In this document: one piece after another, positions 14,166 to 41,356 of the stretch
Layout: every line of letters begins with the position of its first letter
Numbering within the stretch: the stretch's first letter is position 1
Origin: an uncultured Bacteroidota bacterium
Lineage (GTDB): Bacteria; Bacteroidota; Bacteroidia; 2-12-FULL-35-15
Assembly (NCBI GenBank): GCA_903911435.1
Contig: CAIWDF010000098.1
Span: 1 to 48,904, forward strand
Direction: 5' to 3'
DNA length: 48,904 nucleotides
Notes under the pieces: generated by a model
The model's database searches: none
What the model was told of the DNA's origin: nothing
The model's input: the letters and a program-made list of their open reading frames with translations, nothing else
Position numbers and translations under genes: made by a program

Positions 14166-15635
14166 TTAGTTAAACAGTCCTGGGATAAAAGATTGTATCA
14201 TTTTAGAAAGCATAGCCGAGACATCCGGTGCAGCATCCTTCTGGTTATCCTTATCCTTTAAATATGAGAATAGATTTTTCATGAATTTGTCGTACTCGCT
14301 ACCGGGTAGATACTCACTTTCATCTAAAAAGTAAAAGTATTCCTTGATAAATCCATATTCATTCCAAATTCTAGTGCCTTTATGAGTTTCGTGCCGAATC
14401 GAAAGAATGCGCTCGGGAGAGATGAGCTTTCTTAGGTCTCGAATATATCCGGAACCCAGTCCATTCTTTTCGACACGGGTATAAGTTATGTTTTTATTGC
14501 GAATGATAGAAACGCATTTAGGAACGGTTAAGTCCACTGTGTCTAAAGTGTACATCACATCGGTAATAAATACTTTCTTTGGTATAATCGAGCTGAAGAT
14601 AGCGGATAACTCATCTCCTCCTCCCTCAGCCGGATCGACAGCACCGTACTTCGCCTCAACTTTGCTTTTACCCGTCAGGTCTTTAGTTTCAGATTCAAAC
14701 TGAGACCTTGTATAACGCTTTATTTCATTCTTCTTGAAAAGTAATCCTTCCAATGGTTGTGGATCCTGCATGTACTGACGTCCGAAAACAACGCTATTTT
14801 GCTTTTCAAGTTTTCGTAGCTCCTCTATCGTATGTTTAAATTCCCAGAGTGCCGTACCATCCGGTTTAATAGCAGGAAAACTTAAAACGGTCCAATCTTC
14901 AGGGGATTGGTTAATGAGATAACCGCATAGATCCTCCGGATGCAACCGTTGCATAATAATGATGATTGGTGTGTTTCTACTATTAACACGATTCTTAATA
15001 GTTGAATCCCACCTATTGTTTATTCTTTCCCTTTTAGTTTCTGAATCCGCATCATCTGGCTTTATTGGATCGTCTATAATAAGAGCCCCTGAGAATATGG
15101 TACCATCGCTATTAATAAAATCGAGATCATCATCATTGTCATCGCTTTCAATATCAACTTGACCCGCTCCGAATCCGGTAACTTGACCAGCTGCTGCAGT
15201 AGCATATACTCCTCCTCCCGCAGTTGTGTACCATTTCTTTTTTGAATCAGATCCAGGCTTAATTTGTACGTTTGGAAACATTGCCTGATACTCGGGACAT
15301 TTAACGATATCCTTTACCTCCTCTGAATTATCGAGAGCTAAGTCATCAGAATAGCTTAAGTGTATAAATCTAGATGATGGATTAATGGCAAGCCCCTTGG
15401 CCATGAAGTTTTTGACAGCGAGTTCAGTTTTTCCATATCTGGGAGCAATGTTTATAATTAGCTTTTTAATTTTACCCGCAATGACTAAATCGAGTGCGTT
15501 TGCTATTTGGGTATGATGCTCTCCTATTACAAATTTCCTAGCGAAGCGCTCCTTATAAAAATAGCGAGTGAAATCAAGAGTTTTGGTTTCACATAAATAT
15601 TTAATGGTTAGTAATTTTTCAATACTGTGAATCAA
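14166..15635 (-). CDS. terL: Terminase large subunit
   Basis: A 489-residue packaging motor. The N-terminal ATPase has a Walker A-like APRYGKTE (64-71), a hydrophobic strand with Walker B LIIDD (185-189), and a coupling-like IIIIMQRLHPEDL. The C-terminal RNase H-like nuclease has YGAVDPAEGGGDE (D334) and a final Asp in KDAAPDVSAML. It translocates DNA into the prohead and cuts concatemers. It overlaps terS by 17 bases. An Asp-rich insert (DDNDDDLD, 165-172) just before the Walker B strand is notable. Confidence 0.95.
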   Translation of the reverse strand: MIHSIEKLLTIKYLCETKTLDFTRYFYKERFARKFVIGEHHTQIANALDLVIAGKIKKLIINIAPRYGKTELAVKNFMAKGLAINPSSRFIHLSYSDDLALDNSEEVKDIVKCPEYQAMFPNVQIKPGSDSKKKWYTTAGGGVYATAAAGQVTGFGAGQVDIESDDNDDDLDFINSDGTIFSGALIIDDPIKPDDADSETKRERINNRWDSTIKNRVNSRNTPIIIIMQRLHPEDLCGYLINQSPEDWTVLSFPAIKPDGTALWEFKHTIEELRKLEKQNSVVFGRQYMQDPQPLEGLLFKKNEIKRYTRSQFESETKDLTGKSKVEAKYGAVDPAEGGGDELSAIFSSIIPKKVFITDVMYTLDTVDLTVPKCVSIIRNKNITYTRVEKNGLGSGYIRDLRKLISPERILSIRHETHKGTRIWNEYGFIKEYFYFLDESEYLPGSEYDKFMKNLFSYLKDKDNQKDAAPDVSAMLSKMIQSFIPGLFN

Positions 15636-16107
15636 AATCCTCCTTAAATTTTTTTCTCATTTCAGAAGTTATCTCAGGAATTACCATGATTGTTTTATTT
15701 TCCGTCTGCTCTTTTAGACCGAGATCTCTCGATATAATATTCGCATTGAACGCTCCAACTGCCGCCCCCTCAAATTTTTGAGCATCCATAATGTCCTCAA
15801 TATGGGCTATGACCGATGAAAAACCTTCGTGATCCTTATTGTTTTTTTTGAACTGTCTGAAATACGATGAGTTAACTCCAAGAAATATACACAGCCCTGC
15901 GATGGTGAATGGAGTATCGGTTGGAATTTTTACTTTTTTTAGCGTAGGACCTACCGTTTTATACTCAATTTTTATCCATTTTCTTTTAGATGTATGGTGA
16001 AAATATTCCTCAGCAGCTGCAAGTAGTATTTCAGGTGTGGCAAATATTTTTTCACGGCCATGAGTTGACCTTAGTTTCCAAAAAGTATTTTTTTTAGGTG
16101 CCGGCAT
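15619..16107 (-). CDS. terS: Terminase small subunit
   Basis: A 162-residue protein with a helix-turn-helix region (about 66-105: FTIAGLCIFLGVNSSYFRQF) and a C-terminal helix MDAQKFEGAAVGAFNANIIS. This arrangement is typical of gp3/Terminase-type small subunits that recognise the packaging site. It immediately precedes terL with overlapping frames. A TAnnTTTG-type box lies about 20 bases upstream. Confidence is high from motif plus position. Confidence 0.88.
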   Translation of the reverse strand: MPAPKKNTFWKLRSTHGREKIFATPEILLAAAEEYFHHTSKRKWIKIEYKTVGPTLKKVKIPTDTPFTIAGLCIFLGVNSSYFRQFKKNNKDHEGFSSVIAHIEDIMDAQKFEGAAVGAFNANIISRDLGLKEQTENKTIMVIPEITSEMRKKFKEDFDSQY

Positions 16108-27612: not shown

Positions 27613-27815
27613 AAGTTGAAGACTATTTAAAAAAGAAACAACCGTGTCAGCCAACAGAAAAAATATCAGCAAAGGAGAACCTACCAGAGTTCCACAACAG
27701 AATCTTGAACATTCTCAACAGAGTATCAAGGGACAGCCATCAAATGATGGACGTGGAAAACTATCAGGAAGAGATGGCAATAGTTCCAAAAGAGCTCTTG
27801 TGCCATTTACCTTAA
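27609..27815 (+). CDS. Overlapping ORF: possible true N-terminus of PRTRC-F
   Basis: A 68-residue frame whose ATG overlaps the protein C stop as ATGA, the coupling used elsewhere in this operon. Its product (MKVEDYLKKKQPC..., with an amphipathic LPEFHNRILNILNRVSR) looks like a genuine protein start. The long PRTRC-F frame begins 35 bases later in another frame with a low-complexity Gln/Ser/Asn-rich sequence. A -1 shift at CCAAAAG (27786-27792) would join this N-terminus to the PRTRC-F body. Confidence 0.4.
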   Translation: MKVEDYLKKKQPCQPTEKISAKENLPEFHNRILNILNRVSRDSHQMMDVENYQEEMAIVPKELLCHLP

Positions 27816-28921
27816 CTCCCGAAAGGAAAATGCTTACACAGCTTGCGATAATGTCATTTCAAGGAGTGGAACATCCACTGGCAACTGAGGAACAGCAATT
27901 GAAAGCCATCGCTGATATTTATCCAGTCGCTAAATCGATAAATGGTTTCAAGGAAAATAAAAGGTGGTCAATAAATAGTAGTCCAGCTGAGGTACTTCAC
28001 AGCATCCTAACCTCCACTATAAAATCAAATGATTATGAGGAATGGGATGTTGAACTGGAAGACGGTAGATATTGTTTGAAAGTAACTCAATATTATGGGT
28101 GCCCGAATAAATTATTCATACCGATTAATTTCCTTGCTAAAGTCAATCGTTCCCATCCTCGATTACACGAACTGCTTATTTACACGTTTCGTATTCTCCA
28201 AAATATAATCGGAGTGGAATCAATAAGTACTTGGGTGCAGCATAATAAAACAAACTACCAACACGGACATGTCTTTGATTGGGTGAAAAGTAGAGAGGAG
28301 GAACTTTGTAATCACGAAGAGCACGAAGGCGGAAATATGGATCAGGAGGAAATTATAGAGCTTCAGGATTTAAGGGAGTCACTCGATTACTATTCCTTTG
28401 GTGGTATTCCACAGAAATATGCTGCTTTACTTCGAGGTTTAGTTAGCGTAAAGAAGTTTGAAAAGACGTTAAGCTCCTTTCTAATAATGAACGAATACGA
28501 ATCCGTTGCATTACCTTTTATGAATAAAGTTTTGGAGTTGGCAAAAACAAAATATGAGATGCATGAGGTATCGGTTTCACCTTGGGAATCAGGAGAGGTA
28601 ACTCCAAATGAATACATGTCGATAGTTTGGACAGATAACCAACACGATACCTTCTTTAACATTATGGAGGGCAATATCGACCAAGTTGCCGAATGTGCTG
28701 GAAGCGTACCATTCTGTTGGAAGGTAATTCTTAATGAAAAAAATAAAAGCATCGTTAACGAGTACATTCACTTTTGCGATTTACTGCTTTCAGTTTTCGA
28801 TGAAGGGAAAGAATTTATCAAGGTAATAAATAACGATTTGACTTCTAAAAATAAAACTCAGGAGCTTGCACCCAAAGTAGTAAACAATAAAACAACTAAA
28901 AAACTAATAGATATTTTATGA
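27644..28921 (+). CDS. PRTRC system protein F-like
   Basis: 425 residues, soluble. The body from about residue 52 (LVPFTLTPERKMLTQLAIMS) to the end matches the general size and context of PRTRC protein F, the least characterised member. There is an acidic central part (CNHEEHEGGNMDQEEIIELQ), a Trp/Phe-rich helical C-terminal half, and a Lys-rich tail. It lies between protein C and protein B and overlaps B by four bases. The first 50 residues are suspect (see the overlapping frame at 27609). Assignment comes mainly from gene order. Confidence 0.65.
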   Translation: MSANRKNISKGEPTRVPQQNLEHSQQSIKGQPSNDGRGKLSGRDGNSSKRALVPFTLTPERKMLTQLAIMSFQGVEHPLATEEQQLKAIADIYPVAKSINGFKENKRWSINSSPAEVLHSILTSTIKSNDYEEWDVELEDGRYCLKVTQYYGCPNKLFIPINFLAKVNRSHPRLHELLIYTFRILQNIIGVESISTWVQHNKTNYQHGHVFDWVKSREEELCNHEEHEGGNMDQEEIIELQDLRESLDYYSFGGIPQKYAALLRGLVSVKKFEKTLSSFLIMNEYESVALPFMNKVLELAKTKYEMHEVSVSPWESGEVTPNEYMSIVWTDNQHDTFFNIMEGNIDQVAECAGSVPFCWKVILNEKNKSIVNEYIHFCDLLLSVFDEGKEFIKVINNDLTSKNKTQELAPKVVNNKTTKKLIDIL

Positions 28922-29601
28922 GTGATTTAACAGAAACATACAGTCCTAGTCACCAAATTGTCGTTTACAAGAACGATCACGGTAACAATGGATACGTTGA
29001 GCACAGAGAAATAGTTAACATTGAAGGAAAGGACTATTTGTCTGAAGGAAAGCCATTGACGAAAAAAGCCTTGCGTGATATGCTCGATATAGTCATTGAT
29101 TCAAAAAATACTGTCTTCGCAACGGTGAAGGAGTTAATCCCGGATAACATTTTATATTATGACCCAAGACCAGGAAGGTTGGTTTTAGTGTGGTGGCAAA
29201 AACCAAGCGAAAGGCAATTATCAGGAATGTACAAACGAGCAGTAAAATATAAGTGCCCTTCACTTATCTATGTTCTAAAGGATGATTCAATTTCCATCTA
29301 CGCAATGAAGGGAATTAAGAAACCAACATTAAAAACGGCTTTGTATCATCTTCCAGTTCCTAATATCCATGACGATGGTATGGTATGTATGGGAAATGTG
29401 AAAAAGCCAAAGCACACCGTTGAAATATCGGAACTTGTAAAGTTATGGGAAAATTCCTTCTGGCTTTCGAAGTTTGATGAAGGATTAATCAGTGAGAGTG
29501 AATTCAAAAAACTGAAACAAGCCATTCGAATGAAAGTTCCAATAAAGCAATTAAAGCCATTTCGTAAAACATTAAAGCATATCCTCGATGAAAAAAACTG
29601 A
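28918..29601 (+). CDS. PRTRC system protein B, E2-like
   Basis: 227 residues. The C-terminal half contains PVPNIHDDGMVCMGNV (146-161), which matches the ubiquitin E2 active-site signature HPNI...G.ICL: N149 is the oxyanion Asn and C157 the candidate thioester Cys, with H144 nearby. Upstream, DPRPGRLVLVWWQKP resembles the E2 beta-meander. It would accept the protein C ubiquitin-like from the ThiF protein and pass it to a target. It overlaps F and the ThiF gene, implying coupled translation. Confidence 0.85.
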   Translation: MSDLTETYSPSHQIVVYKNDHGNNGYVEHREIVNIEGKDYLSEGKPLTKKALRDMLDIVIDSKNTVFATVKELIPDNILYYDPRPGRLVLVWWQKPSERQLSGMYKRAVKYKCPSLIYVLKDDSISIYAMKGIKKPTLKTALYHLPVPNIHDDGMVCMGNVKKPKHTVEISELVKLWENSFWLSKFDEGLISESEFKKLKQAIRMKVPIKQLKPFRKTLKHILDEKN

Positions 29602-30379
29602 TAATACTCTATACCACTACACAGCGAGTGAATTAATAAACCCTCAACACCCCGTTACGGTATTTGTGATTGGATGCGGAGGTACTGGCAGTCAAATGCT
29701 AAACAACTTGGCTCGAGTTCATAAAGCATTGATTGCAATCGGGCATCCGGGATTACACGTTACCGCTTTTGATGGTGACATCATTACGGAGGCGAATTTA
29801 TCGAGACAATTATTTTCATCTTCAGAACTTGGATTGAATAAGGCGACAGCATTGATTACACGAATTAACCGATTCTATGGCCTAAGATGGAAAGCTCAGC
29901 CAATACAATACGAACTTAAAAGTGATAGAATCAACTGTAATATCTTAGTGACCTGTGTAGATAATGTCGCCATTCGCTTAGATATTGGAAAAGCATTTAA
30001 ACGAATCATACAACATGGTTCTGGAGCTGATAAGCGAAACTTCTATTGGATGGACTTAGGAAATAGTCGATTCACTGGCCAGATAGTTTTAGGAACTCGT
30101 GGCGAAATTAAACAGCCTTCCAAAACTAGGAATACCATTAAACACCTTCCGGTGATTACGGAGCTATTTCCATATCTTAAGAAGTTTGAAAAGGAAGACC
30201 AAGGACCTAGTTGCTCACTTGCTGAAGCATTGACTAAGCAGGACTTATTTATCAACTCTATTTTAGCTCAATATGGTAGTAATTTGATATGGAAAATGTT
30301 TCGTGAGTTACGGTTGAATTATCACGGTGTGTTCATTAATTTACAGACTTTGAATACCAATCCTATTAAAGTAAAATAG
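29588..30379 (+). CDS. PRTRC system ThiF-family E1-like protein
   Basis: 263 residues with a Rossmann adenylation fold. GCGGTGS (29-35) binds ATP, FDGD (61-64) and NLSRQLF (70-76) are the E1/ThiF acid and Arg-finger motifs, and TCVDN (122-126) is the crossover strand. PSCSLAEALTKQD (207-219) carries Cys209, the best candidate catalytic Cys. E1/ThiF enzymes adenylate the C-terminal Gly of a ubiquitin-like protein. It overlaps the E2-like gene by 14 bases and ends in TAG. Confidence 0.88.
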   Translation: MKKTDNTLYHYTASELINPQHPVTVFVIGCGGTGSQMLNNLARVHKALIAIGHPGLHVTAFDGDIITEANLSRQLFSSSELGLNKATALITRINRFYGLRWKAQPIQYELKSDRINCNILVTCVDNVAIRLDIGKAFKRIIQHGSGADKRNFYWMDLGNSRFTGQIVLGTRGEIKQPSKTRNTIKHLPVITELFPYLKKFEKEDQGPSCSLAEALTKQDLFINSILAQYGSNLIWKMFRELRLNYHGVFINLQTLNTNPIKVK

Positions 30380-30580: not shown

Positions 30581-30946
30581 ATGCCAAACCGAGTATTAAC
30601 CAAAGAACAAATATTAAGCAGGATTTCCGAAATAGAGGGTTTGCAGAAATCACTTCCAATTGTCAAGGCGGGCGACTTGCTGCAAGTTACAAAATGGAGC
30701 TTGTCATGTGAAAAAAGGAGGTTGCGATTAAGGCTGTCTAAACTAAACGGGCATCACCATACATTAAGGCAGGCGATTGAGTTAATTCAATCTGTGAATT
30801 CAATCTGCGAAATTTGCGGGGACGATAGCAATCCTTCAATCGACCATAATATACCAATTTCAAAAGGAGGACATAATGGGTTAGAAAATTTAAGGGTGTT
30901 ATGTGTTAGTTGCAATTCAAAAAAAGGAGGAAGGATTTATGGCTGA
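30581..30946 (+). CDS. HNH endonuclease
   Basis: 121 residues. The C-terminal HNH/beta-beta-alpha-metal domain has CEICG (C76, C79), SIDHNIPISKGG (D88, H89), LENLRVLC, and CVSC (C108, C111), a treble clef with two Cys pairs. The N-terminal half is basic and helical for DNA binding. It could be a free-standing homing-type nuclease or a phage recombination enzyme. The next gene starts inside its end. Confidence 0.88.
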   Translation: MPNRVLTKEQILSRISEIEGLQKSLPIVKAGDLLQVTKWSLSCEKRRLRLRLSKLNGHHHTLRQAIELIQSVNSICEICGDDSNPSIDHNIPISKGGHNGLENLRVLCVSCNSKKGGRIYG

Positions 30947-34314: not shown

Positions 34315-35004
34315 ATGAAAGCAGAATTAAAAGATGTATTGCACTTATATAGAGGGTGTGATATTGTATGTGAAGAAATAAGGTACACACTAAAAGCTGT
34401 TATGATTGACGGTGAAGACCATGACGAAAATCAGGAGATATGGGTAATAGCTGAAAACAAACACCGTGAGTACACCTTCAACCTCGAAGATAGTAAACCG
34501 ATTCTTCGCCAGTTATTGGATTTGAAACGAGATGAAATAATTCAGTTTTTTAAATTAAAAGGAATAGAATGTCACAGGGGTGTTTTTAGGACTGGCATAG
34601 GGCGAATAAAGTGGAACAAAGGCGTTGCAGATGGAATGAGTTTTAAGAAATATGAACTTGCTTACTGCAGTATTATAAATGAAGAAATTGAACTGCCTTT
34701 GTTGTGGGCTGGAATATGCCAAGCTAAAAGCCTAAGTGAGCCAATGACACAGCAAGGGAATAAGAAGCTAAATGAAAAGCGAATACACCCTTGCCATAAG
34801 CCAATTTTATTATACCAAAAATTAATTGCGGATTACGGATGGACAGGAATGAAGATATTAGATACACACGTTGGCGGTGGTAGCAGTAGGATAGCAGCAC
34901 ATAGAGCAAATTGCCAATACACAGGATTTGAAATAGACACGGAATATTATGAAAAACAAGAAAAGCGTTTTAATACGGAATTATCACAGCTCCGAATATT
35001 CTGA
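34315..35004 (+). CDS. Methyltransferase-like chimera lacking the DPPY motif
   Basis: 229 residues. Residues 1-80 are a phage domain of unknown function (LKDVLHLYRGCDIVCEEIRY). The C-terminal half has the SAM-binding and end region of an adenine-type DNA methyltransferase: IHPCHKPILLYQKL (about 158-171), MKILDTHVGGGSSRIAAH (181-198) and FEIDTEYYEKQEKRF. The expected DPPY catalytic motif and target-recognition region are absent. It could bind SAM or DNA without methylating, or be a recombination product of a methyltransferase and another phage gene. Confidence 0.65.
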   Translation: MKAELKDVLHLYRGCDIVCEEIRYTLKAVMIDGEDHDENQEIWVIAENKHREYTFNLEDSKPILRQLLDLKRDEIIQFFKLKGIECHRGVFRTGIGRIKWNKGVADGMSFKKYELAYCSIINEEIELPLLWAGICQAKSLSEPMTQQGNKKLNEKRIHPCHKPILLYQKLIADYGWTGMKILDTHVGGGSSRIAAHRANCQYTGFEIDTEYYEKQEKRFNTELSQLRIF

Positions 35005-35435: not shown

Positions 35436-36272
35436 ATGGAAATTCCAAACAATGTACTAAGACTTAGGAAATACATGGAGTTTAGAAAATACTCGCAAAA
35501 TAGTATTGAGAACTATTGTAGTAGCCTGAATAAATTTCTTTCTTTTTTCGATGGTAAATATACCGAACCAATAAAAATACCTAGTTCGGCTATAATCGAA
35601 TATCTGAGTAGATATAAGGAACCTAATTCGCTTTCGGGTGCGTTATCATCTATAAAAATGTTTTACGAAAAATGTTTGAATCAGGTTTGTAAGTTTGATA
35701 AAATTGAAAGACCAAAAAAATCGAAAAAACTTCCGATTGTTTTAAGCCAAGATGAAGTTGAAAGGATGTTCAAAGTGTGCGAAAATTTAAAGCACAAAGT
35801 AATTTTAGCTATTCTATACAGTTGTGGATTAAGGGTAAGCGAATTGATAAATCTTAAGTGGAAAGATATTGATAGATCGCGAATGATAATAAATATTGTT
35901 CAGGCCAAAGGAAATAAAGATAGGCAAGTAATGCTTTCGCCTGAGCTTATTCCATTGCTCGAAAAGTATTATCATCAATATCATTCGAAAATATATGTAT
36001 TGAATGGACAAAACGATTCATTTCAATACTCAGATAGAAGTGTGTGCGAGGTGATGAAACAGTTGGCTAAAAAGGCTGGTATAAGGAAAAGAGTTTATAC
36101 TCACCTAATCAGGCATTGTTCATTTACTCACATGGTAGAGCAGGGAACTGATATTAACCTTATACAACGATTGGCAGGGCATAGTAATGTAAAAACAACG
36201 GCCATCTACATGCATATTTCGGACAGCCTTATCAGCAAAATAAGGAGTCCATTGAGTAGTATAAAAATGTAA
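35436..36272 (+). CDS. Tyrosine recombinase (integrase, XerC/D-like)
   Basis: 278 residues. The N-terminal SAM-like domain (about 1-90) binds core DNA. The catalytic domain shows R133 (GLRVSE), K158 (AKGNKDR), H223/R226 (HLIRH), H249 (GHSNVKTTAIYMH) and nucleophile Y258. All six catalytic positions are present. It probably catalyses integration/excision or resolution of the phage DNA. A second, serine-type integrase lies only 500 bases downstream, so which one integrates the prophage is unclear. Confidence 0.92.
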   Translation: MEIPNNVLRLRKYMEFRKYSQNSIENYCSSLNKFLSFFDGKYTEPIKIPSSAIIEYLSRYKEPNSLSGALSSIKMFYEKCLNQVCKFDKIERPKKSKKLPIVLSQDEVERMFKVCENLKHKVILAILYSCGLRVSELINLKWKDIDRSRMIINIVQAKGNKDRQVMLSPELIPLLEKYYHQYHSKIYVLNGQNDSFQYSDRSVCEVMKQLAKKAGIRKRVYTHLIRHCSFTHMVEQGTDINLIQRLAGHSNVKTTAIYMHISDSLISKIRSPLSSIKM

Positions 36273-36275
36273 TTA

Positions 36276-36458
36276 ATGAACTCGCCTCAAACCATATCAA
36301 AAGAAAACGAACTGTACGGAAAAACCGAACGGTTAGATTCCGTACCGTCCCATTTGGTAGGATTTTCTGAGGTTGAGATAAATTTTATTAAATTAGCCGC
36401 TCAAATCAGAGCGAGAGAGATTTTAAAAACCATTCCTAAATTAGAAATTGTAAAATGA
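36276..36458 (+). CDS. Small protein, hypothetical
   Basis: 60 residues, three bases after the integrase stop and overlapping the next start. The C-terminus is helical (EVEINFIKLAAQIRAREILK). No family recognised; excisionase is a possibility from position, without motif support. Confidence 0.5.
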   Translation: MNSPQTISKENELYGKTERLDSVPSHLVGFSEVEINFIKLAAQIRAREILKTIPKLEIVK

Positions 36459-36580
36459 AACATTTATCCGAAATGAGTTTTAAGGAAATTAATATTGAAA
36501 TTCAGGAAATAAAAAAGGCGTTTAAAAAGTACCCATTAGCCAATAGTAGTGATGCAAGATTCAGGTTAATGAGATTATAG
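36455..36580 (+). CDS. Small helical protein ending at an amber codon
   Basis: 41 residues ending in TAG at 36578-36580. The frame continues after the TAG for 11 sense codons (QELKLKTNNK-like) to a TGA overlapping the next ATG, which would restore the ATGA coupling seen in this operon. The amber may therefore be a recent mutation shortening the protein. Function is unknown. Confidence 0.45.
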   Translation: MKHLSEMSFKEINIEIQEIKKAFKKYPLANSSDARFRLMRL

Positions 36581-36609
36581 CAGGAGTTGAAGTTAAAAAC
36601 GAATAATAA

Positions 36610-36765
36610 ATGAAGATAAATTTATCAAAAAAGGATGTTGCCGTTATAATTGACGCTTTAACTTTTTTAGGAGTTCAAACATCCGACAATGATGATCAGA
36701 ATAAAATTGCCAAAATTGAAAACAAATTATTTGATTTAATAAAGCCTAAAAAGCCAATTAAATGA
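36610..36765 (+). CDS. Small protein coupled to the serine recombinase
   Basis: 51 residues from ATG 36610; its TGA overlaps the serine recombinase ATG (AATGA). Acidic middle (SDNDDQNK) and helical. Being directly coupled to the recombinase it could be a directionality factor, but this is only positional. Confidence 0.5.
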   Translation: MKINLSKKDVAVIIDALTFLGVQTSDNDDQNKIAKIENKLFDLIKPKKPIK

Positions 36766-38357
36766 AGCACGCCACAGCATATTCTTACGAACGTATCTCC
36801 ACTGAGGAACAAAGTAATTTTTCTTTGCGCTTCCAGAATGAGACTATTCAGGAATATGCGGATAAAAATAACATTACTATTATCGAATCATTCCGAGACG
36901 ATGGGTATAGTGCAAAGGATTTCAATCGTCCCGCATGGAAACGCCTCGAGATTGCATTAAAAAAGCATAAGGTAGATTATCTTATCGTGGCCAAATACGA
37001 CCGTCTTATTCGCAATATGCTGGAGGGATTGGTATTCATTGACAAACTCGAAAACAAACTCGGAGTAACTTTAATTTCCGTTCGTGAAAATTACGGTGTA
37101 AGTCCGTTTGACCCCTATTTCAGAAAGCAACGAAACGATATGCTTAACAGTGCCGAACACGAACGGGGATTAATATCTTGGAGGTCTCGCGGAGGTGTAC
37201 ACAAAGGCAAGAAGGAGGGCTACTACCTTCATAAAGCACCGTTCGGATATTATAATTTTAAGGATGATAAAAAGATGCCACAGATAGGCATTGACATTGA
37301 AAGGAGAGAAGTAATCAAAAACATATTTGATGATTTCCTTTCGGGATATTCATTTACCGCCATTCGAAAGCGTGCCGAAGAAAAAGGGTTCACTGGCAAG
37401 CATAGAGAAGTTATTAAAAGAACACTTCTCAATCCAGTCTATGGTGGGTTAATTAAAGTTCCTGCATTCGAATCGCAACCGGAGCAAATTGTAAAAGGAT
37501 TGCACGAAGGTATTGTTAGCGAAGAAACATACTGGAAAGCATACTACCAATTACAGGACCAACTTAAGCCGCAAGGACAAAGGATATTTGATGAACACTT
37601 GCCACTGAGAGGTTTTCTTATGTGCGATAAATGCGGGGCGATTCACACTGGAGCGCGGGCAAAAGGTCGTTCGAAATATTACTACTACTATTGGTGCAAC
37701 AGTTGTAAGGGCAAAACATATAATGCTGAAAAGGTCGACACTGATATTTCCTATTTATTAAACGGACTTTCTCTATCCCCTGAGTTAATCGAGGTCATAA
37801 GAATTGAAACCGAAGTACAAGTGGCCGCCTCAATGGATGAAAGGAAGGTTCAACTTAATAAAGAAGTTCGCGAGTACTCCGAATTAAAAACAAAGCTCGA
37901 TAAGTTAGAGAAAAAATATATTGAGGAGGACCTGGATAAGGAAACCTATAAAAAATGGCACTCGATATATACCGAGGAACTCAACAAAAAGGGGGTGTTA
38001 TTATCAGATTTGAAACGAACCGAATCAGAATCGGCCATGCTTATTAGTACCATCGATTATTTTACCGACCTCAATTACCTTTATAAAAAAGCAGCTGTTG
38101 AGGAAAAGCAACAGTTCCTGAAGGGTGTATTCCCTGCTAGTTTAATCACCTTGGAGAAAGGTTATCGAACCGCTTTTATTACTTCCATGTTTGCTCCGAA
38201 TGCTAATAAATTAGAGGGGTTGATACAAATAAAAAGTGGGGACAATGCCACTACTTTTAGCAATATCCCCACTTTGGGTGGCTCATGGAACCCAGTTCAA
38301 ACCAATTTAACTTCATTCCTGAAGTTGGTTGAGCGCATCATTAATAGAGCAGCGTAA
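36762..38357 (+). CDS. Large serine recombinase
   Basis: 531 residues. The resolvase domain starts YSYERISTEEQS with catalytic Ser13, and the DGYSAKDFNRPAWKRL and VAKYDRLIRN segments follow. A recombinase domain (about 160-265) precedes a zinc ribbon C288/C291/C312/C315 (CDKC...CNSC) and a coiled coil (about 345-440), the full layout of large serine integrases. It carries out site-specific integration/excision between attP and attB. Its end overlaps a cluster of CGTAA repeats. Confidence 0.93.
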   Translation: MKHATAYSYERISTEEQSNFSLRFQNETIQEYADKNNITIIESFRDDGYSAKDFNRPAWKRLEIALKKHKVDYLIVAKYDRLIRNMLEGLVFIDKLENKLGVTLISVRENYGVSPFDPYFRKQRNDMLNSAEHERGLISWRSRGGVHKGKKEGYYLHKAPFGYYNFKDDKKMPQIGIDIERREVIKNIFDDFLSGYSFTAIRKRAEEKGFTGKHREVIKRTLLNPVYGGLIKVPAFESQPEQIVKGLHEGIVSEETYWKAYYQLQDQLKPQGQRIFDEHLPLRGFLMCDKCGAIHTGARAKGRSKYYYYYWCNSCKGKTYNAEKVDTDISYLLNGLSLSPELIEVIRIETEVQVAASMDERKVQLNKEVREYSELKTKLDKLEKKYIEEDLDKETYKKWHSIYTEELNKKGVLLSDLKRTESESAMLISTIDYFTDLNYLYKKAAVEEKQQFLKGVFPASLITLEKGYRTAFITSMFAPNANKLEGLIQIKSGDNATTFSNIPTLGGSWNPVQTNLTSFLKLVERIINRAA

Positions 38358-38430: not shown

Positions 38431-39051
38431 TTAAATCGTTTCTATCATCAACAAATCCGGTTTATAAATATCCTTTGTTGTAATCCCTGGCTCGAACGTG
38501 CTAAACTTTCCATCCTGTGGAGTCTTATTAATTTTGCCATTTGAAATATCTTCCACAGCTTCAGCAATTAATTTTATTCCGAGAGGTAGCAGCTGTTCCT
38601 TCCAGACATCAGAAGCGCTTTTATTTCTGTCGAGCCATATCCATTCTTGACGTTCGATATCGCCATGGTCTATTCCTGAGTTTAGCCAGTAAACGGATCC
38701 ACCAGTAATAATATCGTTCATTCTGATTGCCCATTCAATTGCGCTGCGACCTCGGTGTCTTGGTAATAATGAAGGATGATATCCAATCCATCCATGTTTT
38801 GTTTTATACCTAGTCAGGCGACCGATATAATCAAACGAATGCGCAGTAATTCCTAAATCACATCCTGCCGGCATCGTGTCGAAATTCAAACTGCCGGCAG
38901 GAATGATTTTAATATTGTTGAGCGTGGCCAGCCTACCGATATACCTATCATCGAGTGGACAACATACTCCAACAATTTCATGTCCTTGTGTCAGGCATGC
39001 TCTTAAAATTTCCTGACCAAAATACTTTTGACCTGATATAAATATCCTCAT
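38431..39051 (-). CDS. Formyltransferase-family protein
   Basis: 206 residues of the folate-dependent formyltransferase N-terminal fold: RIFISGQKYFGQEIL start, GYHPSLLPRHRGRSA (90-104) with H92, and YWLNSGIDHGDI with D128. In PurN/Fmt the catalytic triad is N-x-H plus Asp; here the Asn position is Gly90, which I have seen in phage members but is notable. The enzyme would transfer a formyl group to an amine. Neighbours are GNAT, ABC ATPase and ParB-like genes, so the substrate might be a modified base, an amino acid or a sugar; this is inference. Confidence 0.8.
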   Translation of the reverse strand: MRIFISGQKYFGQEILRACLTQGHEIVGVCCPLDDRYIGRLATLNNIKIIPAGSLNFDTMPAGCDLGITAHSFDYIGRLTRYKTKHGWIGYHPSLLPRHRGRSAIEWAIRMNDIITGGSVYWLNSGIDHGDIERQEWIWLDRNKSASDVWKEQLLPLGIKLIAEAVEDISNGKINKTPQDGKFSTFEPGITTKDIYKPDLLMIETI

Positions 39052-39068
39052 ACAATTGTTAATTTTAG

Positions 39069-39164
39069 AAAAAGTCCGGTAAAAACGCAGGACTTTTATA
39101 ATTGGGAAACCATTGGTAATACACGATTCTTTAAAAAGTTAGGTAAAATTGGCGGACTTTTTAT
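39069..39164 (-). repeat. Two tandem hairpin repeats between GNAT and formyltransferase
   Basis: 39069-39099 and 39133-39164 are imperfect direct copies, offset by 64 bases. Each forms a hairpin: AAAAGTCC/GGACTTTT (39070-39077/39090-39097) and AAAAAGTT/GACTTTTT (39133-39140/39155-39162). On the minus strand each 3' arm ends in T4-T5, so they resemble weak terminators or an attenuator before the formyltransferase gene. Confidence 0.45.
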
Positions 39165-39188
39165 CAAAATGAACTTTGTGCTTAACCA

Positions 39189-39665
39189 TTATTTACTACC
39201 AATATATTTAAACCCTTGTACCGCTCTGAAATGCCCACCGTAACCTGCGGAAGCATGACCGCTTCCAATTCCTTTATCGTGATTATCGCTGCCGTATTTT
39301 TTAGAAGTGCTCTTATCTCCGCGGTGAGACTTATTAATACTCTTTTGCGACTTCGCTTTATTACCTCCAAACATTTGTTGACTTTTCAAAACCCACTTAC
39401 TGCTATTTTTTAAGTATGCAATCAACTGCGGATGGCTCGTATGAAACATGGTCGGCAGCTTCTTATTACACCTGCCGTTCCCCTCTTTATGATATTCGCA
39501 GAGGTATTCTAAAAACTTGGTACCTACCCCGGCTCCTTGCCACTCGGGCATAACTACTAATCTAGTTGCACGGTAGGCACTGGCAGTAAAAAAAGGACAT
39601 ATTGCCAAATGGCATACTAGCTCGCCATCAACCGTTCCGATAAAATATTCTGCAGCCGGTGGCAT
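39189..39665 (-). CDS. GNAT-family acyltransferase (C-terminal half of an ABC-GNAT fusion?)
   Basis: As a free-standing frame it has 158 residues. TRLVVMPEWQGAGVGTKFLEYL carries the acyl-CoA binding motif (Q/RxxGxG/A), and the end is basic and Gly/Ser-rich. The frame stays open upstream of its ATG to the A9 run at 39764-39772, encoding plausible protein (SEIGTRPTFELEIRKVDSS, then WKYFKPHYYLDLP), so the ATG is probably not the true start. The domain seems to belong to the same protein as the ATPase at 39674, in the -1 frame. Mu Mom is a GNAT-type base modifier, so DNA modification is possible. Confidence 0.72.
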   Translation of the reverse strand: MPPAAEYFIGTVDGELVCHLAICPFFTASAYRATRLVVMPEWQGAGVGTKFLEYLCEYHKEGNGRCNKKLPTMFHTSHPQLIAYLKNSSKWVLKSQQMFGGNKAKSQKSINKSHRGDKSTSKKYGSDNHDKGIGSGHASAGYGGHFRAVQGFKYIGSK

Positions 39666-39673
39666 TGGCAGAT

Positions 39674-40369
39674 CTAAATAATAATGCGGTTTAAAATATT
39701 TCCAGTAAGAGGAATCGACCTTCCTGATTTCCAGTTCGAAGGTTGGCCTGGTTCCGATTTCGCTTTTTTTTTAAACTGGCCCGTGCCGGTATCAAAAAGC
39801 CAATCAGGTTGAACCCACTCGACAATATCATAATGGCAGGAAAGGAGGATACATTTTTTACCTTTGTTTCTCCTCCATCCTTTTGCAAAGGCCATCGCAC
39901 CAATCTTTGCTATTTGTCTGTCCACTACAGACGTAAACTCATCAATGATCACTTCGCTGTTTGCCTCAGTCATTACCCGTGCAAGTCCCGCTCTGAATTG
40001 CTGACCATTACTTAATGCATGGAAAGGTCGTAACCAACTGGGAACATCTCCAAGGCCGACATTTGCTAATGCTCCGGTGACTGTATTAAAATCGGCATCG
40101 GGACAAAGTGATTCTACTATTGGTAAATTCTTATCCCATCCGGAATATAGGTCTAAAATTTTACCACCATTAAATAGCAAATTGCCAATGGAGGTTTTAC
40201 CGGTTCCGGACGGACCTACTATTAAACCGATTTGCCATTCGATATCTTCAATCGGTAGGTTTGCATCGAGATTAAATTCATTGCCTCGCTCGGCATTGAA
40301 CAGCGATTTCACACGTGCACTTCGGTACCCGTTATGGTCTGCAGTTTTATTTCTTACTTGTATGATCAT
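39674..40369 (-). CDS. ABC-type ATPase (N-terminal part of an ABC-GNAT fusion?)
   Basis: 231 residues. Walker A GPSGTGKTS (52-60), ABC signature LSNGQQ (119-124), Walker B EVIIDEF (139-145) and H-loop SCHYDI (H179) make a complete soluble ABC nucleotide-binding domain without membrane segments. From about residue 200 (QFKKK) onward the sequence looks off-frame. A -1 shift at the A9 run would continue into the GNAT frame. It overlaps the ParB-like gene by four bases. Soluble ABC ATPases fused to GNAT occur in phage genomes as I recall. Confidence 0.8.
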   Translation of the reverse strand: MIIQVRNKTADHNGYRSARVKSLFNAERGNEFNLDANLPIEDIEWQIGLIVGPSGTGKTSIGNLLFNGGKILDLYSGWDKNLPIVESLCPDADFNTVTGALANVGLGDVPSWLRPFHALSNGQQFRAGLARVMTEANSEVIIDEFTSVVDRQIAKIGAMAFAKGWRRNKGKKCILLSCHYDIVEWVQPDWLFDTGTGQFKKKAKSEPGQPSNWKSGRSIPLTGNILNRIII

Positions 40370-40899
40370 GTGACTACTATTTTACATTTATATCCTCGTT
40401 CGGTTAATTCATTAAATACTTTCTCCTGGTCCTGATCATCCGCACACATAACAATTACTCCGTACTGACTTTTAGCGGGGATGCCTTCATCTTCAAAATT
40501 GCCGACAATTTCATTTACAACCAATGGCGCCAGTCCGAACTCCTCCAGATTTAAATCCTTAAACTCGAGTTCGATCATTTCCATATCCCACTCTCCGGAA
40601 TGAGTATTGCTAATCAGGTTATACTCCTTTACTTCATTTAAAGTAAGTGCACGGTTTGGAACTCGTACATCTATTAACTCCTCACCTCTTCCAACTAGCC
40701 TTAAAACCCTTACTCTCTTATCACCGCTGATAATTGTATTATCAGTGTTGATGGCAGGAATTTCCACAAGATTGAACTTATGCAAATATTGCACGAGTTG
40801 CTCACGCTTTGAATCGGTTATTGTTCTGGGGTTAAATTCGAATGGTACCAAATCAATTACCTTTCGTTGTTCCGTTTTCCACTTTAGTTTTTTCATCAT
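40366..40899 (-). CDS. ParB/Sulfiredoxin-like domain protein
   Basis: 177 residues. NPR (23-25) and ISGDKRVRVL (57-66) match the ParB-N/Srx motifs (NPR...GxxR). The middle (about 90-125) is a helical region where ParB proteins have HTH-like helices. No full KorB-type DNA-binding domain is evident. In phages such proteins are found near terminase or methyltransferase genes and may have CTPase or nuclease activity. Here it is coupled to the ABC ATPase. Confidence 0.82.
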   Translation of the reverse strand: MMKKLKWKTEQRKVIDLVPFEFNPRTITDSKREQLVQYLHKFNLVEIPAINTDNTIISGDKRVRVLRLVGRGEELIDVRVPNRALTLNEVKEYNLISNTHSGEWDMEMIELEFKDLNLEEFGLAPLVVNEIVGNFEDEGIPAKSQYGVIVMCADDQDQEKVFNELTERGYKCKIVVT

Positions 40900-40912
40900 T
40901 TTGCTTATTAAT

Positions 40913-41245
40913 TTAATTCATATCGTCAGGATAGTATGCATCCTCTAATTTTGCTAGGTCCTGAATAATTTGTAAAGCAAGTTTATACTCCCTTGTCTCC
41001 AATGCTTTTTTATAAAGCGATAATCTCAGTTGAACATGAAACGCTTTTTTCGTTTTCTGCGACTTATTAGTACGTTTTGTAAAATCACCAAAAGCGTCTG
41101 CAATCATTTTTATAGCTGCCGGCTCTGTAATACTCCAACGAGTCATAATATCCCTACAAATATCCGTGACTAGTTCACCTTTCAATAGCCACTCCTGAAT
41201 GTTCCGAATGCGAATAGAATTTTCCTTTACCTTACCTTCACTCAT
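40913..41245 (-). CDS. HTH protein resembling terminase small subunits
   Basis: 110 residues, helical, with an N-terminal HTH-like segment (NIQEWLLKGELVTDICRDIM) and a basic linker (TKRTNKSQKTKKAF), then LALQIIQDLAKLEDAYYPDD. The layout resembles small-terminase or phage HTH proteins. It is the first gene of the modification-like island, placed before the ParB-like gene. As a bona fide terS is present at 15619, this could be a regulator or island-specific recognition protein. Confidence 0.6.
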   Translation of the reverse strand: MSEGKVKENSIRIRNIQEWLLKGELVTDICRDIMTRWSITEPAAIKMIADAFGDFTKRTNKSQKTKKAFHVQLRLSLYKKALETREYKLALQIIQDLAKLEDAYYPDDMN

Positions 41246-41300: not shown

Positions 41301-41356
41301 AAGAACAACACACGTTCAGAAAGACATTGTCCTTCAGGTGAACGTGTGTTGTTCTT
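41301..41356 (-). terminator. Strong intrinsic terminator at the end of the late operon
   Basis: Bases 41301-41318 and 41339-41356 are a perfect 18-base inverted repeat; the loop can extend the stem by GAAAGAC/GTCCTTC with one mismatch. In the leftward direction the stem ends in T7. It lies between the DUF6527-like gene (stop 41442) and the island (41245). The gap 41246-41441 also holds a C10 run at 41424-41433, a small ACAAAGG/CCTTTGT hairpin near 41362-41384, and a plus-strand TACTTTTG at 41262-41269 of uncertain meaning. Confidence 0.85.

Follow-up and report, generated by a model that had tools for sequence, protein, structure and literature searches.

A phage ABC-GNAT gene family with two opposite predicted recoding signals, and its place in a candidate DNA-modification cassette

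Phage proteins that couple an ABC ATPase to a GNAT acyltransferase have been predicted to acyl-modify a DNA base (PMC7824862, citing Iyer et al. 2013), and in phage Mu, Com activates translation of mom, the product of which modifies the phage DNA against restriction (PMC6483171). Recoding that yields two products from one gene is known from dnaX (tau and gamma) and from prfB, which encodes release factor 2 (RF2). Here, we analyzed a stretch of 48,904 nucleotides (nt) from an uncultured Bacteroidota bacterium (contig CAIWDF010000098.1; hereafter the window), which carries a phage with an ABC ATPase and a GNAT domain encoded on the minus strand. The initial annotation listed these as two separate genes and overlooked the recoding. 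Both domains are present, but sequence comparison indicates that they form one gene, split by a -1 frame change at a run of nine adenines (A9), and that the family would make both the ABC protein alone and an ABC-GNAT fusion via two different recoding signals.

The published ABC-GNAT prediction concerns the same fused family (PHROG 11143) in a phage setting, and the portion of that source available to us contains no mention of dual decoding, a formyltransferase partner, a small domain or a link to Com (PMC7824862). DNA acylation by such proteins is thus already predicted; the partly accessible literature searched on ABC ATPase, GNAT and ParB proteins, on Mom and on frameshifting held no description of ABC-GNAT recoding or of the formyltransferase link. 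The main text of the GeneTack survey likewise does not contain the recoding. With dnaX, the family shares the predicted derivation of a short and a long ATPase from one gene by a slip on A-AAA-AAG/A, with a putative downstream hairpin in some members. In dnaX, however, the frame-0 product is the long one and the shift shortens it, whereas in the clade of the window the shift would lengthen it, and a sister ABC-GNAT clade would obtain the same product pair by a +1 signal. At the homologous site of that clade, a Shine-Dalgarno (SD)-like purine run (AGGGGG/GGAGG) is followed after a 3-nt spacer by a CTT slip codon, as in prfB. The next codon is CGG, TGG, CAA, CGA or AGG, and the in-frame UGA of prfB is not found in these relatives. 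Since no stop codon follows CTT, the site is not one of release-factor autoregulation.

Frame relation of the ABC and GNAT halves

Both halves match the same 357-amino-acid (aa) family in order, with ABC residues 3-203 aligning to profile positions 3-195 and the GNAT to positions 230-351. In the window, the GNAT is shifted by -1 against the ABC part. A -1-frame stop sits directly before the A9 run (39772-39764), which confines the switch to this run or to positions after it. Reading -1 through the run restores the GNAT linker and its first strand-helix (KSEIGTRPTFELEIRKVDSSYWKYFKPHYYLDLP). The predicted fusion would comprise ABC residues 1-202 plus the GNAT (about 393 aa), and the frame-0 short product ends in an alternate-frame tail, ...LTGNILNRIII before its stop. 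The Walker A, signature, Walker B and H-loop residues of the ABC domain are intact and invariant in relatives, as are Q278, G279 and G281 of the GNAT CoA motif Q-G-x-G. For the structure model of the fusion, only homologues from genomes and viral contigs were used. The fused model of a homologue reached a pLDDT of 88.7, and its halves match ABC ATPases and GNATs (1y9k, Z 14.5); in the structure search with this model, ABC domains dominate and a single GNAT entry is present.

To place the window among its relatives, 240 loci were collected from IMG/VR, GTDB genomes and phage records, and the frame relation was counted for 235 of them. The GNAT is in the -1 frame in 113, fused in frame in 120, and in the +1 frame in 2, one of these at an assembly gap. 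The -1 loci carry the zero-frame heptamer A AAA AAN, which conforms to the dnaX-type pattern X XXY YYZ, at the same codon in 88 of 89 distinct loci, the window included. The A-runs of these 88 loci are 6 (3 loci), 7 (18), 9 (26), 10 (38) or 11 (3) long, and elsewhere in the same open reading frames (ORFs) no A-run exceeds 8. RNA folding was compared with a null model preserving the GNAT-frame protein and the codons of each gene. Structure exceeds this expectation only in the 57 nt that immediately follow the slip (mean z -0.96, n = 84), with four control windows at +0.07, -0.20, -0.18 and +0.01. In one subclade the hairpin covaries (0.328 against 0.215 when shuffled, 0/500), with 93% of cells paired and slid versions reaching at most 0.07. 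Furthermore, the frame-0 tail stops at 26-33 codons in 37/37 representatives, where 12% would be expected.

Fused relatives were clustered at 75% identity. All 40 clusters with Leu at the site use CTT (6.25 expected from their own codon usage), the predicted SD duplex is stronger than expected (-7.7 vs -4.1 kcal/mol), and a +1-frame stop follows 24-28 codons downstream in 95% (28% expected). A +1 slip here would give the ABC protein plus a tail in the GNAT +1 frame, which is the default frame of the -1 clade, and the alternate-frame tails of both clades end in [SK][RS]I[TI]I before the stop. The main-frame codons behind this ending are kept far more often than codon usage predicts, with His CAT in 40/40 (17 expected) and Tyr TAT in 46/47 (20 expected), and likewise the stop-making Leu codon (43/47, 22 expected) and Pro CCG (27/32, 14 expected). 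In a scan of all 207 conserved columns without preselected positions, the six top values all lie within the overlap (z of 14.1 for CTT, 9.0 for CGA, 8.8 for TAT, 8.0 for CAT, 5.3 for CCG and 5.1 for TTA; 95th percentile 3.8). Taken together, the conserved -1 site, the CTT site, and the conserved alternate frame and its stop suggest that both products are made, via two signals. That opposite signals would lead to the same product pair argues for selection on both products.

On the tree of the ABC domain, CTT sites occupy the outermost branches and the A-run type is found mainly in a Bacteroidota part, with 6 changes of signal type as opposed to 23 in shuffles. CTT sites are spread over Proteobacteria, an actinobacterial (Gordonia) phage, Planctomycetota, Verrucomicrobiota, Bacillota and Bacteroidales. 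The simplest reading of this distribution is that the +1 signal is ancestral and that the -1 signal replaced it later. SD pairing is little used by Bacteroidota, which may be the reason for the replacement. A distant fused branch (L043, L046, L049-L067) keeps an AGG GGG SD-like element with GTT or GAA as the slip codon in many members, which suggests the use of other +1 slip codons.

Proposed mechanism and alternatives to recoding

In the mechanism that we propose, frame 0 would give the ABC-type ATPase with a tail of ~30 aa, and a fraction of decoding events would slip -1 on the A-run to give the same ATPase fused to the GNAT acyltransferase. In relatives outside the Bacteroidota -1 group, the fusion would be read in frame 0 and the short ATPase would arise from the RF2-like +1 slip at CTT. 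The working particle would probably mix bare ABC subunits with a few acyltransferase-bearing ones, similar to tau and gamma of dnaX. More specifically, an ABC dimer with the ParB-like protein or its small domain would bind or scan DNA, the GNAT would transfer an acyl group from acyl-CoA onto an exocyclic amine, and the formyltransferase encoded downstream would supply this group or modify it further.

Several observations weigh against this picture or against its ribosomal basis. The hairpin downstream of the slip site in the window does not rank with the strong ones, one locus (L070) has the -1 relation without any slippery site, and Bacteroidales members of the fused clade keep CTT without the SD-like element. 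Two members of the -1 clade, L119 (4001-5128) and L176 (5001-6119), keep a long A-run with ABC and GNAT in one frame, and the frame of L231 is anomalous, so that loss of the signal is possible. Finally, 67 of the 88 distinct loci have A-runs of 9-11, and thus transcriptional slippage, as in Thermus dnaX, could serve equally and give the same two proteins; runs of A8 or longer are listed as programmed sites of such slippage (PMC3711429). However, in 21 of the 88 the run is just A6-A7, among them L016, L133 and L134 with the dnaX heptamer A AAA AAG. A downstream structure under selection is typical of ribosomal -1 slips, and the RF2-type +1 signal of the sister clade is ribosomal. The slip is therefore likely made by the ribosome rather than the polymerase, which for the window itself we infer, and slippage during transcription appears a serious but less probable route.

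Other explanations of the broken frame fare worse. A homopolymer indel from sequencing or assembly, or a decayed gene, would fit a break inside A9 and the differing frames of L119, L176 and L231. Nevertheless, the direction is the same in 113 loci as opposed to 2, in independent assemblies including isolates, and the complete chromosome of Chryseobacterium sp. ZHDP1 shows the break in two copies. With the frame-0 stop fixed and the GNAT frame intact with all of its motifs, we consider an error or decay practically negligible. Phase variation, in which the length of the poly-A run would switch the ABC-GNAT on or off between genomes, would account for the varying run lengths and for L119 and L176 being in frame near -1 relatives. 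It is very unlikely given a frame relation that stays constant in 88/89 distinct loci despite runs of 6, 7, 9, 10 and 11, and given that the alternate frame, together with its stop, is retained even in in-frame relatives that have no run. We judge equally improbable that translational coupling yields a separate GNAT by reinitiation at the ATG at 39665, which lies close to the ABC stop in the window (7 nt past it). This ATG is not the natural start, because the ORF beginning there misses the first GNAT strand and helix, and because many homologues do not have this codon (L004, L015 and others have F, H or K at the position). Most relatives, moreover, make an in-frame fusion.

The conserved cassette and its substrate

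A check of co-conservation showed that the core of the gene set is strongly conserved together. A formyltransferase follows within 300 nt downstream in 98/102 frameshifted loci and in 64/108 fused loci with enough sequence. In 109 of 110 -1 loci and 90 of 111 fused loci, the ABC/GNAT gene is directly preceded by the coding sequence of a small domain of ~36 aa, and the stop and start codons usually overlap. This domain occurs either as a stand-alone protein (44-50 aa, phrog_28816; the version at L175:4870-5004 matches this family at 1e-16) or at the C-terminal end of a ParB-like protein. The latter is the case in the window, where the phrog_28816 match covers residues 142-175 and the ParB-like stop codon overlaps the ABC start (ATGA), as read from the sequence. 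The conserved cassette consists of the small domain in either of these two forms, the ABC/GNAT gene and the formyltransferase, and comparison among relatives supports it alongside the dual frames. The HTH/TerS-like gene, which the initial annotation had counted as a member, falls outside. This 110-aa gene has no Pfam, NCBIfam or TerS-family match, and a homologue is found in only 1 of 73 loci, at another position. A role as TerS was rejected because the phage has its own TerS (15619-16107, phrog_606) beside TerL (14166-15635, phrog_38).

The surroundings of the cassette vary between phages. In the Gordonia phage BiggityBass, ParB is followed in turn by ABC-GNAT, formyltransferase and terminase, and in Porphyromonas phages and the Pseudomonas phage Komp_PAO1_1 the cassette stands after tail genes. 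Ten Mu-like loci carry a Com zinc finger (PF10122, E down to 4e-23) immediately upstream, which places the cassette in the mom slot at the Mu-like right end, after the tail-fibre genes. The two systems share a GNAT-fold modifier, but Mu mom comes without an ABC ATPase, a formyltransferase or recoding, and the cassette GNAT appears not to be a Mom. Membership in the Mom family was rejected, as the window GNAT does not match PF25680 up to an E of 0.5 and hhalign of the family with Mu Mom gives a probability of 0.6%; Mu Mom itself matches PF25680 at 2e-75.

The initial annotation had proposed a DNA-modification or anti-restriction island. This idea is supported in part: the conserved core set and the published prediction agree with it, and Com upstream in the ten Mu-like loci adds independent support, whereas membership in the Mom family and inclusion of the HTH/TerS-like gene are not supported. 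We consider it probable that the cassette modifies nucleic acid, most likely a base in the DNA of the phage itself as a protection from restriction, and its position behind Com in Mu-like phages, in the place of mom, makes DNA modification the best reading. DNA as the substrate is suggested by this slot, by the ParB and terminase context and by the published prediction. Two points count against this reading: the formyltransferase is absent from a distant branch (L025-L066) and is therefore not essential to the core, and GNATs and formyltransferases also commonly act on proteins and sugars. The cassette might accordingly modify a protein or a surface sugar in the course of host takeover or superinfection exclusion, and its proximity to tail-fibre genes in Mu-like phages would suit such a role. 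The cassette, however, lacks sugar-nucleotide and membrane genes, and the ParB-like partner, the com-mom slot and the terminase neighbours all argue for DNA, leaving a protein or sugar target the distinctly weaker candidate.

The formyltransferase bears on the chemistry of such a DNA modification. Its AlphaFold model (pLDDT 89.6) has as its best match in the PDB the hydrolase domain of 10-formyltetrahydrofolate (10-formyl-THF) dehydrogenase (FDH; 4qpd) with an E of 5.5e-19, a TM-score of 0.85 and 30% identity, and the profile match reaches 7e-42. H92, S94 and D128 are invariant in 53 formyltransferase sequences, and two residues before the catalytic His stands a nearly invariant Gly (G90). Amine-formylating enzymes of the PurN/Fmt type need Asn at this position, and with G90 in its place the enzyme does not fit that type. 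The invariant residues instead correspond to His106-Ser108-Asp142, the His-Ser-Asp triad described for FDH/HypX-type formyltransferases (PMC6802093). FDH is thus the closest relative in fold and sequence, and the triad is shared with the HypX N-terminal domain as well; the window enzyme differs from both in being a single domain without an OB-fold, carrier or hydratase domain. FDH passes the formyl group to a phosphopantetheine thiol, and HypX has been proposed to make formyl-CoA (PMC6802093). The resemblance to a thiol-formylating domain makes it possible that formyl-CoA feeds the GNAT, and formylation of a DNA base is likewise possible; whether the transferred group would be formyl or another acyl is a guess. 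In a fuller scenario, which we hold to be speculative and rather doubtful as a whole, the enzyme would make formyl-CoA from 10-formyl-THF, the GNAT would use it for N-formylation or acylation of a phage DNA base, and recoding would set the ratio of ABC to ABC-GNAT, by the +1 RF2-like signal in most phyla and by the -1 A-run that replaced it in a Bacteroidota lineage.

Layout of the window and meaning for the family

The contig is part of a 4.19-Mb bacterial genome assembly that is 99.5% complete, and the phage on it has genes of its own for TerS, TerL, portal, capsid and a tape-measure-like protein. The leftward set described in the initial annotation is present as five minus-strand ORFs (Table 1), and the strong terminator said to bound it corresponds to a hairpin found by folding. 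This hairpin is not in the output of a scan for promoter and terminator consensus sequences, which performed no better than on shuffles, and an Rfam scan across the whole window gave no match. Unlike in most relatives, where the formyltransferase gene abuts or overlaps the GNAT, the two are separated by 137 nt in the window, and structure in the gap is weak (z = -1.7).

Table 1. Coordinates of the cassette and adjoining features in the window
Feature	Coordinates	Strand	Evidence or remarks
HTH-like ORF, 110 aa	40913-41245	-	Head of the set; no significant family match
ParB-like protein, 177 aa	40366-40899	-	phrog_620, 1.4e-19; phrog_498 (ParB-methyltransferase), 2e-19
Small C-terminal domain of the ParB-like protein	40369-40476	-	About residues 142-177, YGVIVMCADDQDQ...CKIVVT
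ABC ATPase, frame 0, short product of 231 aa	39674-40369	-	PF00005; phrog_11143, 2e-80
A9 run	39764-39772	-	Heptamer A AAA AAA (39770-39764), then G; predicted -1 recoding site
Dual-coding overlap	39674-39763	-	Frame 0, tail of the short product; frame -1, start of the GNAT
GNAT as -1-frame domain	39189-39763	-	phrog_11143 residues 230-351; frame analysis
GNAT ORF as first called	39189-39665	-	PF13508; phrog_11143, 6e-37
Formyltransferase, single domain, 206 aa	38431-39051	-	PF00551, 3e-15; phrog_9240, 3e-46
Terminator-like hairpin upstream of the set	41301-41356	-	Minimum free energy -22.1; z -7.6 vs shuffles

Other plus-strand genes in the window were identified as well. The genes for a tyrosine integrase (35436-36272) and for a large serine recombinase (36762-38357) are almost adjacent, and the region of both (35436-38357) ends 73 nt from the convergent formyltransferase gene. 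The early region of the phage encodes two members of a PRTRC cassette, PRTRC system protein B (E2-like; TIGR03737 at 1e-28, under the curated cut-off) and a PRTRC ThiF-family protein (TIGR03736, 1e-79), at 28918-30379, adjoining a 425-aa ORF (27644-28921). A 229-aa protein (34315-35004) matches N6/N4 DNA methyltransferases in its C-terminal 80 residues, with most of the remainder giving no Pfam match, and is possibly a remodelled or partial methylase. The C-terminal half of a 121-aa ORF (30581-30946) resembles part of IscB/Cas9-like nuclease models (NF040563 at 3e-6, under the cut-off), and this ORF is probably a small HNH nuclease.

Conserved recoding is rare beyond dnaX, prfB, tail chaperones, IS elements and a handful of further genes. 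The ABC-GNAT genes would represent one phage family with two opposite frameshift signals for the same product pair, and this common outcome makes the reason for the dual product testable. The locus is also an example of one enzyme misread as two genes. As a whole, the predicted ABC-GNAT modification system gains likely partners in the small domain, the formyltransferase and control by Com, and isolated phages with the cassette, such as the Gordonia phages (e.g. BiggityBass) and the Pseudomonas phage Komp_PAO1_1, offer DNA that can be analyzed directly for a new modification.

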